From: Paenibacillus tianmuensis
GTDB taxonomy: Bacteria; Bacillota; Bacilli; Paenibacillales; NBRC-103111
Direction: 5' to 3'
Assembly: GCF_900100345.1 (NCBI RefSeq)
Contig: NZ_FMTT01000014.1
Coordinates: forward strand, 62,001-126,000
DNA: 64,000 bases
Position numbers and translations under genes: made by a program. The number at the start of each line of letters is the position of its first letter. Position 1 is the first letter of the stretch. The notes under the pieces were generated by a model that was given only the letters and a program-made list of their open reading frames with translations, searched no databases and was not told the origin of the DNA. Below are positions 2,867-23,196 of this stretch, one piece after another.

Positions 2867-4237
2867 TCAAAACTTCGCCGTGAAGCGGGCGTATTGCACC
2901 AGCTTCTTGACGGAGGGACGGATCTTGCGCCCGGCCGCCAGCGGCGTATTGTCCTCCTTCGACGGCTTCGAGTTGACTTCAATCAGCCATACCCGGCCAT
3001 TCGTATCGATCGCCAGATCGATTCCGAGCTCGGCATAATGGCCTTGGATCTGCGTTTCGATGCCCTTGGCAATTTGGATGGCCGCCCGCCTCAGCTTGCC
3101 TACGCCGCCGGCCGCCGCGGCAGCCCCGGAGCGTCCCAAAGCGTCCTTGACCGTTGTCAGCGTACCCCCCCGAGCCAGATTGGAGACGAAGTGATGCGTG
3201 CCGGCTATGCGGGCTACGATGGACGTAATGCCCCATTGTCCGGTTTCCCCGCGCTGCACCAAGGCCCGAAAATCGACGGGCCGGCCGTTCACGGTCAGCA
3301 AGTCGAGCCCTTGCTGAATTTGATAGCGTCGGCTTTTCAATTTGCCCGAGATGGTGCTGAACAGCTTGCCAAGGGTCGCAAAGGACTGCTTACGGGCGCC
3401 GCCCAGATTCGTAAAATGACAAATGTATCCGTCCGGTTGTTTTTTAATCCGAATGATGCCTTTCCCGAGGCTGCCGGTAATCGGTTTGAGAAACACGGTC
3501 GGATGCTTGGCGCACATCGATTTGAGAAGCTGGAGGTTCCGCAGCAAATACGACTCCGGCAAGTACTTCTGCAGACCCGCTTCCTTGTGGAGGGCATCGA
3601 ATACTTCCGTCTTGTTCAAATACTTTTCATTGAAGAGCACCGCATTATGGCGACTCTTGGCTTGCGTCACAAAATGCTGCACATTGGCCCGGTTTTCCAG
3701 CTTGCGCGAGGTCAGACGGTTATACAGCACGTGCGGCACCGGAAACGTCGTTTTTTCCCAGTCGCCGGTTGCCTTGACGCGCCACCCCCGAACCTCGTCG
3801 CTCTGTCCGCGCAAATCTTCAGGCGTGCTGAAATACACCGATGCGCCATACAGCCTGCACGCCTCGGAGAGCTCGCGGCTAAAGGCGGTATTCGCCCCGA
3901 ACAGCTTGTCGGCGGAATTGGCGTAAACGCGGCTGACCATGACACCGATCAGCGGGCCAAGATGAATCGTACGGGTTCCGGTTTTGTATTGAAGACAGAG
4001 TTCATCCCCGTGGGCAAGCCCCCATCGGGAAGCTAACGAACCGCTCAAGCGCAGCACGCCGGCCTTGGACGAAGAGTTGACCGAAACCTCCTCCCGGCTA
4101 GAGCCGAAACGGAGCTGGAGAGGCTGCTGCAGCGGAATCTTCCATCTTTTCACTACAGATTCGCTGAGCGTCAGAACGGAACCGTCCGAGGAAGTGCCGG
4201 CGCTTTGGATCTGGATCGTCACCTTTGTTCTTTTCAT
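2867..4237 (-). CDS. YheC/YheD family endospore coat-associated ATP-grasp protein
   Basis: 456 aa. The start at 4237 has AAGGAG about 7 bases before ATG; in-frame codons further upstream lack a site. An N-terminal domain (about 1-105) rich in short beta-like stretches precedes GPLIGVMVS. The ATP-grasp core has LKPITGSLGKGI and ends in LGIDLAIDTNGRVWLIEVNSKPS. It is first in the minus-strand run, so its promoter should lie in 4238-4450. Function is assigned by family only: a spore coat or cortex-associated ATP-grasp enzyme with unknown product. Confidence 0.85.
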   Translation of the reverse strand: MKRTKVTIQIQSAGTSSDGSVLTLSESVVKRWKIPLQQPLQLRFGSSREEVSVNSSSKAGVLRLSGSLASRWGLAHGDELCLQYKTGTRTIHLGPLIGVMVSRVYANSADKLFGANTAFSRELSEACRLYGASVYFSTPEDLRGQSDEVRGWRVKATGDWEKTTFPVPHVLYNRLTSRKLENRANVQHFVTQAKSRHNAVLFNEKYLNKTEVFDALHKEAGLQKYLPESYLLRNLQLLKSMCAKHPTVFLKPITGSLGKGIIRIKKQPDGYICHFTNLGGARKQSFATLGKLFSTISGKLKSRRYQIQQGLDLLTVNGRPVDFRALVQRGETGQWGITSIVARIAGTHHFVSNLARGGTLTTVKDALGRSGAAAAAGGVGKLRRAAIQIAKGIETQIQGHYAELGIDLAIDTNGRVWLIEVNSKPSKEDNTPLAAGRKIRPSVKKLVQYARFTAKF

Positions 4238-4449
4238 GCGGAACTCCTTCCCAGCACCGGCTTGCCGCAAGACATGCCGCAACATGCTTTGAACATTGAG
4301 AAGCGAACTACTTCATCATATGAGGGCGTCTAACCCTTGGTGAAAGAAACTACCTATATCGGGCAAGTGCCTGCAAGCCCGTCGACTCCTGCCATGACTG
4401 AAATACTTCATGTCGGAGCAAGATCCTTTTGAGCCTTCTACAAGGTGAA
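4238..4449. other. Intergenic region upstream of the yheC/yheD run
   Basis: I see no gene here. It should hold the minus-strand promoter for the YheC/YheD run, probably a sporulation-sigma promoter, but I could not point to a convincing -35/-10 pair. The right side ends in a long hairpin. Confidence 0.4.
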
Positions 4450-4506
4450 CGTCAAATAGCCCCCAGCGAGCCTAGCTAAGCTAGCCGCGTTGGGGGCTAT
4501 TTGACG
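4450..4506. terminator. Long near-perfect inverted repeat between divergent transcription units
   Basis: Arms of 19 bp (4450-4468 and 4488-4506) pair with one G/A difference. Between them is a second, nearly palindromic CTAGCTAAGCTAG core. The outer part begins CGTCAAATAGCCCCC. There is no strong T-run on either side, so it may be an unusual bidirectional insulator, or a repeat, rather than a standard terminator. It separates the promoter of the YheC/YheD run from that of the acyltransferase. Confidence 0.5.
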
Positions 4507-4541
4507 CTTACTCTACAAGCAAATCATCTAACCAGGGCTAA

Positions 4542-4595
4542 GTGACTAGACTGTCACATTCAAGTCACTGTAAAGTTACTTCGGGCAGATATATT
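4542..4595 (+). promoter_or_regulatory. Four 11-bp-phased direct repeats plus -10 box (OmpR-family-like activator site)
   Basis: Four 6-mers occur at an exact 11-bp pitch: GTGACT (4542), GTCACA (4553), GTCACT (4564), GTTACT (4575). Nine bases later is TATATT (4590-4595). PhoP-type response regulators bind such 11-bp direct repeats, and the spacing to the -10 is the same as in the ppk, pstS and pstC promoters here. The half-site GTNACW differs from their TTWACA, so either a PhoP variant or another OmpR-family regulator could bind. The geometry is seen directly; the regulator is inferred. Confidence 0.6.
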
Positions 4596-4627
4596 AAACC
4601 CATCGACAAACGGTTGGAGGGTTCAGC

Positions 4628-4678
4628 ATGGAAATTCTAAGGATCGAACATAGTATAAATGCCTATGAACTTCTGTAA
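4628..4678 (+). CDS. Possible 16-aa leader peptide upstream of the acyltransferase
   Basis: A short reading frame, MEILRIEHSINAYELL, starts at ATG 4628 behind a strong site (TTGGAGGG, about 6 bases upstream). It stops at 4678, 19 bases before the proposed GTG start of the acyltransferase, and the weaker GAAGGGA of that gene follows the stop directly. This arrangement would couple translation of the two. No recognisable family. It could also be a chance ORF. Confidence 0.4.
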   Translation: MEILRIEHSINAYELL

Positions 4679-4697
4679 GAAGGGAAGAGAAACGCAC

Positions 4698-5804
4698 GTG
4701 ACAGAAACGAAACGGATATCGAAACCGAAGCTGTTGGAGCTGGACATCGTCCGGGCCATCGCCATTCTCGCGGTCGTGCTCATTCATTCGACGGCCGACC
4801 CCACGGTCGAGCTGCCGCCGGGCAGCGGCCCCCATGCGGTGTATCTGACGCTCAACAAGCTTTCCAGTTTTGCCGTGCCGGTATTTATCCTGATCAGCGG
4901 TCTGGTATTGTTTTACCGCTATCAGGACGACTTCGGCGGCAAGCAGGCGCTGCAGTTTTATTTGAAGCGTGTCAAGCAGGTGCTGTACCCGTATTTGGTG
5001 TGGTCGCTCTTTTATTACTTGTACAACCAGTGGATTTTTGTCGGGCAAAACCTGCACTGGAAAACGAGAGAATTTTTGGGTTTGCTAAAGTGGGGGGAAG
5101 CTTCGTATCACTTATACTTTATGATCATTATCATCCAGTTTTATTTGCTGTTTCCGCTGCTGATGTGGCTGTGCCGGACATTTCCCTGTTTCCGCAGCGG
5201 CTTGATCTGGATCGGCCTGTTCATTCAGACCGGGTTTTATGCGTATCACATCTGGGTGAAGCCGATCGGCCACATGCCTGCGCTCGCTATTAACTATTTC
5301 AGCATGTTTACGCTAGGCGGATGGATCGGTCTCCATTACGAAGCATTCGCGGCTTGGATTCGCAAGCACTTCGTCTGGGTGCTGCCGCTGACGGCGGTGC
5401 TCGGCTTCGGCTTCATGGGCTTGTCCCAGATGGAAGTGCGGCTGAAAGTCGATCTGGCCCACCCCTGGAATCACGTCTTGTATTACGCTTATGCGGCTTT
5501 TGCCGCCATGAGCTTTATCCGATTGGGCCAGTTGCTGCTGGAGCGGGCCAAAGCGGCGGCGCGCGTGCTCATGACGCTTGGAGCCGCCTCGTTCGGCATT
5601 TATTTGGCGCATCCGGCGTTGATGACCTATTACAAAATGCATGTCCTCCCGTTCAGCAGCGCCATGTCGGCTTATCATGCCTATATATTTGAGGTGTTCG
5701 CGCTTTGTCTGACGATTCCGTGGATCGCAACGTTCTTGTATGGTCAAGCCATGCGGTCGTTCCGGCGCAAGAAGCCAAAGCTAAGCCCCGGCGGGAGCGC
5801 TTAG
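4698..5804 (+). CDS. Acyltransferase 3 family integral membrane protein
   Basis: About 368 aa. The protein has about ten hydrophobic segments with short loops. The N-terminal stretch LDIVRAIAILAVVLIHS carries the family signature, with the conserved His in the first membrane segment. The first span is followed by FAVPVFILISG and the last by FGIYLAHP. Family knowledge: acyltransferase-3 proteins move acetyl or other acyl groups across or onto envelope polymers or exported molecules. The start is uncertain: GTG 4698 (GAAGGGA upstream) avoids overlap with the leader ORF, while ATG 4659/4665 would overlap it. The phased-repeat promoter suggests control by a response regulator. Substrate unknown. 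Confidence 0.8.
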   Translation: MTETKRISKPKLLELDIVRAIAILAVVLIHSTADPTVELPPGSGPHAVYLTLNKLSSFAVPVFILISGLVLFYRYQDDFGGKQALQFYLKRVKQVLYPYLVWSLFYYLYNQWIFVGQNLHWKTREFLGLLKWGEASYHLYFMIIIIQFYLLFPLLMWLCRTFPCFRSGLIWIGLFIQTGFYAYHIWVKPIGHMPALAINYFSMFTLGGWIGLHYEAFAAWIRKHFVWVLPLTAVLGFGFMGLSQMEVRLKVDLAHPWNHVLYYAYAAFAAMSFIRLGQLLLERAKAAARVLMTLGAASFGIYLAHPALMTYYKMHVLPFSSAMSAYHAYIFEVFALCLTIPWIATFLYGQAMRSFRRKKPKLSPGGSA

Positions 5805-5879
5805 CGAAGTTAAGGTGCTATTTTGGCCGGGACCCTCATACAATGTATCGTACAAGTTGTACGAGGGGAGGCTGGAATT

Positions 5880-6158
5880 TTGAAGGGGACCCGTCATATC
5901 ATGGGGTTGGCCCTGGCGCTGGGCATGATGCTTTACGCCGTACCAAGGCTCGATTTCAGCGGGGGCTGGACGCTGGCTTCCGTTTTCGGCGCGGGATGGA
6001 TCGCTTTTGCGCTGCTCGTCATTGCCGCACATTTGCACGAGCTGCTTGGCGTGGAGGAGGAGACGAAGCGGGAGCTGCTCAAGATCAAACGAATGAAAAA
6101 ATGGCGGCTGGAGCAATCGCTGCAGGGAAGGCGCAGCCTTTTGCAGATCAAAAGATAG
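5880..6158 (+). CDS. Small two-TM membrane protein with basic coiled-coil tail, unknown function
   Basis: 92 aa from TTG 5880, chosen because GGGGAGG lies 9 bases upstream. There are two predicted membrane segments (about 7-22 and 28-50). A highly charged Lys/Arg/Glu-rich helix (about 55-92) follows and is likely cytoplasmic. I do not recognise a family. It follows the acyltransferase by about 75 bases on the same strand and may be cotranscribed. A strong terminator follows its stop codon directly. Confidence 0.6.
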   Translation: MKGTRHIMGLALALGMMLYAVPRLDFSGGWTLASVFGAGWIAFALLVIAAHLHELLGVEEETKRELLKIKRMKKWRLEQSLQGRRSLLQIKR

Positions 6159-6160
6159 CG

Positions 6161-6208
6161 AAAAAAGTCCGTTTTCACCCCTTAAGCGGTGGGAAACGGA
6201 CTTTTTTT
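6161..6208. terminator. Bidirectional Rho-independent terminator
   Basis: Stem AAAAAGTCCGTTT / AAACGGACTTTTT, with A- and T-runs on the outer ends so that it works from both sides. It lies between two convergent small genes (ending 6158 on plus and 6220 on minus). Confidence 0.9.
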
Positions 6209-6219
6209 CTGCCCCTCGG

Positions 6220-6552
6220 CTACACAATGAGCGAGATCGCTAACAGATCGAACAGGACGAGCGGTAAGATCACATTGCTGTAGAAGGGATTGTAGAACGA
6301 ATCAGCATAAGGGCCGGGAAGCAGGGCGCGGCCGTGCTCCGGAGACATTTGCAAATACGCGTAATGATCGTCGATATTTACGATCGTGCCTTCGTAGCTG
6401 TGCCCGTGGACCGTATAGACGCGTACGGGCCTCTGCAAATATTCGGTGCATATGCTGTGAATGCGGTTCTTGCACCGGTTGAATGCTTCCGCGTCGCGCG
6501 TATCAAGCTCGTAGACGGTCCGCGTCTCGCCTGCGAATGGGTTGTCTGGCAT
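6220..6552 (-). CDS. Conserved small protein with Sm-like middle and hydrophobic C-terminus, unknown function
   Basis: 110 aa. ATG at 6552 with AGGAGGTG about 10 bases upstream. The central part (PVRVYTVHGHSYEGTIVNIDDHYAYLQM, abridged: VRVYT..GTIVNIDDHYAYL) has the beta-strand rhythm of Sm-like/DUF2642-type folds found in some spore-coat-linked proteins. The last 20 residues are hydrophobic (LPLVLFDLLAISLIV) and could sit in or on a membrane. It is divergent from ytoI. Family and role are not established. Confidence 0.65.
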   Translation of the reverse strand: MPDNPFAGETRTVYELDTRDAEAFNRCKNRIHSICTEYLQRPVRVYTVHGHSYEGTIVNIDDHYAYLQMSPEHGRALLPGPYADSFYNPFYSNVILPLVLFDLLAISLIV

Positions 6553-6637
6553 ATGGATTCCACACCTCCTATGGGGTTTCGCCTAATCCATTGTATGCTG
6601 ACGGGCTGCTTTTCTAGTCCTGAGCGCAGTTTTTTTT

Positions 6638-6666
6638 GTGCAAAAAAAATGATAAGATATAGTACA
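6638..6666 (+). promoter_or_regulatory. Candidate sigma-A promoter for ytoI
   Basis: TTGTGC, about 16 bp, then TATAGT, within an A/T-rich stretch that also contains a T8-GTGC-A8 inverted repeat (about 6631-6650). It lies about 40-60 bases before the ytoI start. The assignment is by eye. Confidence 0.45.
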
Positions 6667-23142: not shown

Positions 23143-23196
23143 TTTACATAAAATTAACAAAAAGAGCGCGCTCGCTTAACATTGTCGAATTACGAT
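23143..23196 (+). promoter_or_regulatory. PhoP box and -10 element of ppk
   Basis: TTTACA (23143), TTAACA (23154), a degenerate third position (23165) and TTAACA (23176) lie at an exact 11-bp pitch. TACGAT (23191) follows 9 bases after the last repeat. PhoP of Bacillus binds TTAACA-like direct repeats at this pitch, and the pstS and pstC promoters here have the same layout. The start codon of ppk is about 60 bases downstream. Control of ppk by phosphate starvation is thus strongly suggested. Confidence 0.85.

Follow-up and report, generated by a model that had tools for sequence, protein, structure and literature searches.

A captured promoter of a two-component/ABC-transporter module probably controls a membrane acyltransferase gene in Paenibacillus tianmuensis

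Several described systems resemble the promoter considered here. The regulator MtrA recognizes sites that, in the available parts of two reports, read GtnAcC-n5-GTnAcn in Streptomyces and consist of GTCACAgcg direct repeats in mycobacteria (PMC5650626; PMC13189361). Bce-like modules are represented, in the excerpts at hand, by BceRSAB and PsdRSAB (PMC3023708; PMC10314905), and the accessible portion of another paper gives their sites as AnnTTACnAnnnnGTnAG (PMC10858260). Promoter capture, in which a deletion or rearrangement sets a gene under another promoter, is likewise documented (PMC12803068; PMC11111574). The element at 4542–4595 described below is very probably the captured, activator-dependent promoter of a two-component/ABC-transporter module, which now likely controls a membrane acyltransferase gene.

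The window, that is, the whole stretch of 64,000 nucleotides that was analysed, carries four direct 6-mers on its + strand: GTGACT (4542–4547), GTCACA (4553–4558), GTCACT (4564–4569), and GTTACT (4575–4580). Their pitch is exactly 11 bp, and nine bases separate the fourth GTNACW unit from the -10 element TATATT (4590–4595, +), which reads TATACT in the native genus copies read. This architecture, on which the original prediction was built, was recovered exactly: the pattern (GTNACW-N5)x3-GTNACW matches at 4542–4580 (+), the predicted binding array for the OmpR-family regulator of the module, and also on the minus strand at 4541–4579, because the unit WGTNACW is its own reverse complement. The expected number of such fourfold arrays was 0.00 in 100 dinucleotide shuffles, none of which contained one, and no second array with up to two mismatches was found in the 64-kb window. 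With its direct repeats of about 6 bp at a one-turn pitch beside a -10 element, the array has the form of an OmpR/PhoB-family site. In a consensus scan of 4200–6300, the two sigma-70-like sites were both on the minus strand; the lack of a plus-strand site fits an activator-dependent promoter.

The window also contains three sites of the type bound by Bacillus-type PhoP (starts at 23143, 52648, and 53756, all +), which were detected as four TTHACA units at an 11-bp pitch scoring at least 17 of 24 points, followed by nine bases and TA...T. As had been predicted, these Pho boxes share the pitch and the nine-base gap to the -10 with the 4542 array, but their units are TTHACA rather than GTNACW and the third is degenerate in each. 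A reading of the 4542 array as a Pho box was therefore rejected, and the Pho-type sites of the window are separate from it.

The origin of the array was traced by homology. Bases 4520–4640 of the window (121 bases) gave 12 strong matches in nine of the 25 genomes of the genus, namely the window itself, nine native module loci, one per genome, and two copies in a sister genome (G015) that precede acyltransferase sequence. In all nine native matches, a histidine-kinase gene ends on one side and an ABC-transporter ATPase gene starts on the other; in the genome of the window (G000), the native copy lies at G000:C31:27895-28015. The segment 4520–4647 takes in the stop codon of the kinase gene, the promoter, the ribosome site, and the first eight ATPase codons (MEILRIEH); its identity with the native copies is 93% for G000, G009, and G024 and 91% for G015. 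The segment begins with the last codons and stop of the captured kinase gene (4520–4531, +) and includes the Shine-Dalgarno sequence GGAGGG (4616–4621, +) inherited from the ATPase gene. Of the 104 family genomes, only G000 and G015 carry strong matches (E<=0.001) away from the module locus. By this homology, the 4542 array is a stray second copy of the promoter/switch region of the module, brought in with a deletion. The acyltransferase gene has other upstream DNA in related genomes, and the promoter has another gene in its native place, which is what defines a promoter capture. Compared with the captures described in the accessible literature, the present one involves a short piece of a distant locus at a deletion junction, in two related natural genomes. 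In a separate observation, the third unit is damaged in the native array of both G000 (AGTCATT) and G015 (AGTCATG), and the G015 array also has an altered first unit and one extra base, whereas the captured copies keep the consensus.

The recipient locus has also been rearranged. In eight relatives (G009, G024, G005, G003, G001, G019, G004, and G007), yheC and the acyltransferase gene are about 5.6 kb apart, against 0.4 kb in the window. The gene content of this interval was read in G009, where it comprises gerAA, gerAB, gerAC, and the genes for an HAD hydrolase and a DeoR-type regulator; the other seven relatives provide the spacing. About 5.2 kb is gone in the window and in G015, and the module promoter fills the gap before the acyltransferase gene. 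What is left is a remnant of the gerAA start (ATGTCGGAGCAAGATCCTTTTGAGCC) at 4410–4435 (+), while the rest of the gerA operon and the HAD hydrolase and DeoR genes are missing relative to G009. At the left junction, at about 4436, gerAA passes into the 3' end of the kinase gene with CTT common to both, and 4436–4444 (+) forms the left piece of the captured DNA. At the right junction, near 4647, ATPase codon 8 passes into acyltransferase upstream DNA. The same gerAA remnant, palindromic element (described below), and junctions are present in G015, which is 95.7% identical to G000 over 6 kb of the region.

Matches to the acyltransferase were found in 49 of 60 genomes, and 30 loci were examined for the array. 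It lies within 400 bases upstream of the gene in two of them, the window and its G015 orthologue; the other 28 have none, their best score of 17/24 being within the shuffle range. Eight orthologues (82–84% identity) are preceded by the start of the DeoR-type gene and by another upstream region, both lost in the window. The array is therefore not a typical acyltransferase-gene site. The original prediction had named a lack of conservation at orthologous acyltransferase genes as grounds for discarding the site, and this lack is nearly complete; yet the site is not spurious, because the scarcity reflects the capture of the promoter in one lineage. The gaps between the DeoR-type and acyltransferase genes of other genomes (loci L003–L010) contain repeated AAGT/CTTA-like words, which by eye resemble DeoR operators.

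Within the captured DNA, a 67-bp palindromic, MITE-like element occupies 4445–4511. It has 23-bp imperfect inverted ends with three mismatches and is flanked by two copies of TCTACAAG, an 8-bp direct duplication (left copy 4437–4444, right copy 4512–4519, both +). The element or its ends match in 8 of the 25 genus genomes (E<=0.001), including G000 and G015; at the few other copies viewed by eye, no clear flanking duplication was seen. The stretch folded (4447–4513) forms a hairpin of -43.8 kcal/mol (z -9.0), after which no T-run was seen. An ordinary terminator was considered and set aside, since an inserted element accounts better for the missing T-run, the duplication, and the scatter of related ends. 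The element apparently entered the captured DNA later.

The native module of G000 encodes a 227-aa regulator, a 337-aa kinase, a 227-aa ABC ATPase, and an 854-aa permease. The regulator has Response_reg (PF00072) and Trans_reg_C (PF00486) domains, the kinase HisKA and HATPase_c domains, and the permease FtsX and MacB_PCD domains. Among solved structures, the best relatives of the regulator are RegX3, MtrA, and KdpE, and its best NCBIfam family is MtrA, at 200 bits; this is below the cut-off of 300, so that the protein does not qualify as an MtrA equivalog. In the available text on MtrA, the sites have the same GTnAC core as the array, and the Streptomyces direct repeats have the same 11-bp pitch. 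The initial belief that no such site had been described has to be abandoned, as GTnAC-N6-GTnAC direct repeats are reported for MtrA in the parts of these papers at hand (PMC5650626; PMC13189361). The two systems differ in that each promoter has four units here and two there, at least in those parts, in that the regulator falls short of the family cut-off, and in that its partner kinase is short and lies beside an ABC transporter.

As in Bce-like modules, the regulator, kinase, ATPase, and permease genes stand together, and in the excerpts available the promoter of those modules likewise precedes the ATPase gene. The core TnAC-N6-GTnA of the Bce-like sites given there, as read from the sequence, occurs three times in the 4542 array. 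The permease differs. According to the same excerpts, a Bce-like permease has 10 helices and a single large loop, which joins helices 7 and 8, whereas a hydropathy scan of the module permease gave about eight hydrophobic segments, ordered 1+3+1+3, and two large loops. Its best solved relatives are an unnamed ABC permease, YtrF, MacB, and LolF, the last three matching better than PsdB (E=0.0019), and BceB is absent from its 25 solved-structure matches up to E=10. For the ATPase, the best solved relatives are MJ0796, LolD, and PsdA. The kinase matches many kinases through its catalytic part, VicK-like proteins best and BceS far more weakly. Bce-like kinases are described, in the excerpts, as having two helices joined by a very short outer linker. 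The module kinase has one hydrophobic stretch near its start (about residues 9–55), which a simple scan resolved as one segment only, and no room for an outer domain. Classification of the module as Bce-like was dropped, because the permease departs from the definition in its helices, in its loops, and in the missing BceB match. Boxes of a 7-4-7 type, reportedly treated by Dintner in 2011 and Fang in 2017, were not used as evidence. No description of this module or of a four-unit GTNAC array was recognised in the literature searched, and as far as these searches show, the module–site pair and the natural re-use of its promoter are new.

In 13 of the 14 genomes that were read, tblastn (E<=1e-15) places the regulator and kinase genes next to the ATPase gene; in the remaining one, G125, the array is present and the 10-kb stretch gave no regulator or kinase match. 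In G101, a VanZ-family gene (PF04892) lies between the kinase and ATPase genes, directly behind the array (5392–6330 within G101:C33:60000-71000), and the kinase–ATPase gap of G073 is similar in size. Two tandem permease copies were noted in G015:C56:64000-72646, apart from the contig with the regulator and kinase genes (C89); the second is a partial match with an internal stop at the contig end, so the assembly may play a part.

Across the family, the array tracks the module. A model was built from 14 array sequences of 13 genomes, picked as well-scoring copies of an earlier search, and run on 104 family genomes; it is sequence-only and its E-values are rough. At E<=0.001 it matched 22 of the 25 genomes with the permease (E<=1e-50 for the latter) and none of the 79 others, among which G098 gave a match only at 0.009. 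Twelve permease genomes had given the model no sequence, and nine of these were matched, several with copies nearly identical to those of the model. Three permease genomes gave no match at this threshold (G067, G076, and G032); the first two show weak, partial matches about 0.7–0.8 kb before the permease gene. At E<=0.01, G000 has two matches and G015 has three, against a single match for every other matched genome. The first-look candidates scored per genome numbered 49 in the 104-genome run and 150 in the other run, and weak sites may thus be missed. In the 14 aligned copies, the unit bases are nearly fixed and the spacers vary. The search of related genomes proposed with the original prediction thus turned up such sites, behind the kinase gene of the module. 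Judged by this distribution, the array belongs to the module, and the pair formed by four GTNAC units and an MtrA-like regulator beside a tandem-FtsX ABC exporter follows the module across six genera.

The gene now behind the captured promoter (4698–5804, +) encodes a 368-aa membrane acyltransferase (PF01757), for which NCBIfam (E<=1e-5), PADLOC (E<=0.001), and solved structures (E<=1) returned nothing. It is open, and its dN/dS between G000 and G015 (0.41 by NG86, 0.55 by YN00) indicates that it is constrained between these genomes. Upstream lies a 16-codon mini-ORF, MEILRIEHSINAYELL (4628–4678, +), whose first eight codons come from the ABC ATPase and the remainder from acyltransferase upstream DNA; it ends 19 bases before the GTG start of the acyltransferase gene. 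The three captured copies all keep it in frame (MEILRIEHSINAYELL, MKILRIKHSINAYELL, and MEILRIEISIDAYELL).

These features suggest how the locus may have arisen and how it may work. In the common ancestor of G000 and G015, yheC and the acyltransferase gene would have been brought closer by the loss of about 5.2 kb, and about 130 bp of the module now stands at the junction, with the kinase 3' end, array, -10 element, ribosome site, and eight ATPase codons. One copying event, with template switching at short homology, could have produced deletion and insertion together. For the module, with its OmpR-family regulator, membrane kinase, LolD/PsdA-like ATPase, and tandem FtsX permease, we infer a signal, regulator binding, and inducibility: the kinase, perhaps signalled via the ABC transporter, would phosphorylate the regulator, which would bind all four GTNAC units on the same face of the DNA, with units 3 and 4 over the -35 region. 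The bound regulator would recruit RNA polymerase, and the transcript would start just after 4600. The hybrid ORF has a strong ribosome site, and its translation would stop just before the ribosome site of the acyltransferase gene, to which it may be coupled. The captured copy thus probably puts the acyltransferase under the control of the module, presumably with some benefit. With the promoter captured in this way, the gene is most likely driven by a regulator of the OmpR family that is distinct from PhoP, in line with the original prediction; the position of the array behind the kinase gene of a module with a Response_reg and Trans_reg_C regulator agrees with this, and the variant in which PhoP has changed its specificity is not supported. 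The suggested role in envelope stress is plausible, in view of a kinase lacking an outer sensor domain, an ABC exporter, and the VanZ gene that follows the array in a related genome.

The array could also be a passenger of the deletion, without effect on an acyltransferase gene that uses another promoter. Between G000 and G015, the 54-bp core carries two differences, one in the free base of unit 4 and the other in the fifth -10 base, so that it evolves no more slowly than its surroundings, and divergence leaves selection on the captured copy unproven. Against this, the four units, the 9-bp gap, and the TA...T box are kept in both genomes, and each of the three captured copies retains a ribosome site and the mini-ORF in frame; moreover, the upstream DNA of the orthologues is gone, and 4200–6300 offers no + strand sigma-70 match. 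The presence of the array in two genomes supports function without proving it, and a passenger role appears distinctly unlikely. Import of a ready-made fusion from another species, instead of formation in this lineage, would be compatible with a captured copy that is equally close (93%) to the native copies of G000, G009, and G024. It is nevertheless unlikely, as G015 is the nearest of the relatives searched for the flanking yheC and acyltransferase genes, which is expected of descent, and as G000 and G015 are alone among the 104 family genomes in having strong matches outside the module locus.

Even if the promoter was captured, another OmpR-family regulator (PhoP, WalR, or another paralogue) might use the array, perhaps at both promoters. 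Such regulators often bind direct repeats, judging from the excerpts of the literature available. At E<=1e-25, 35 places in G000 match the regulator, itself included, so a paralogue could bind the array, and the array of G125 has no adjacent regulator match. Still, the array follows the module, occurring in 22/25 genomes with and 0/79 without the permease, and the regulator gene is adjacent in 13/14 loci, which makes this explanation very unlikely. To our knowledge, PhoP and WalR are expected throughout the family, in contrast with the module-limited array.

Control of the acyltransferase by the captured module promoter suggests that a one-operon regulon may gain a member through a short promoter piece landing at a deletion, and not by point mutations building a site. 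In this case, donor locus, recipient locus, gene order of relatives, and both junctions are all visible, and the regulator–site pair is directly testable with reporters. A further, tentative possibility is that the promoter behaves as a portable cassette: that of a single-target module would have recruited an envelope acyltransferase by short insertion at a deletion junction, a second G015 copy with the 5' part of the gene would lead a UbiA/DUF212 membrane-gene cluster, and a one-operon regulon would be growing by promoter duplication while its native site decays in G000 and G015. This second captured copy lies at about 5297–6650 of G015:C116, where the array, -10 element, mini-ORF, and 5' portion of the acyltransferase gene lead into a UbiA-family ORF, whose protein has no match in G000 (E<=1e-20). 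Behind this ORF follow an EamA/SMR-like gene, an unnamed 585-aa gene, and a DUF212 gene.
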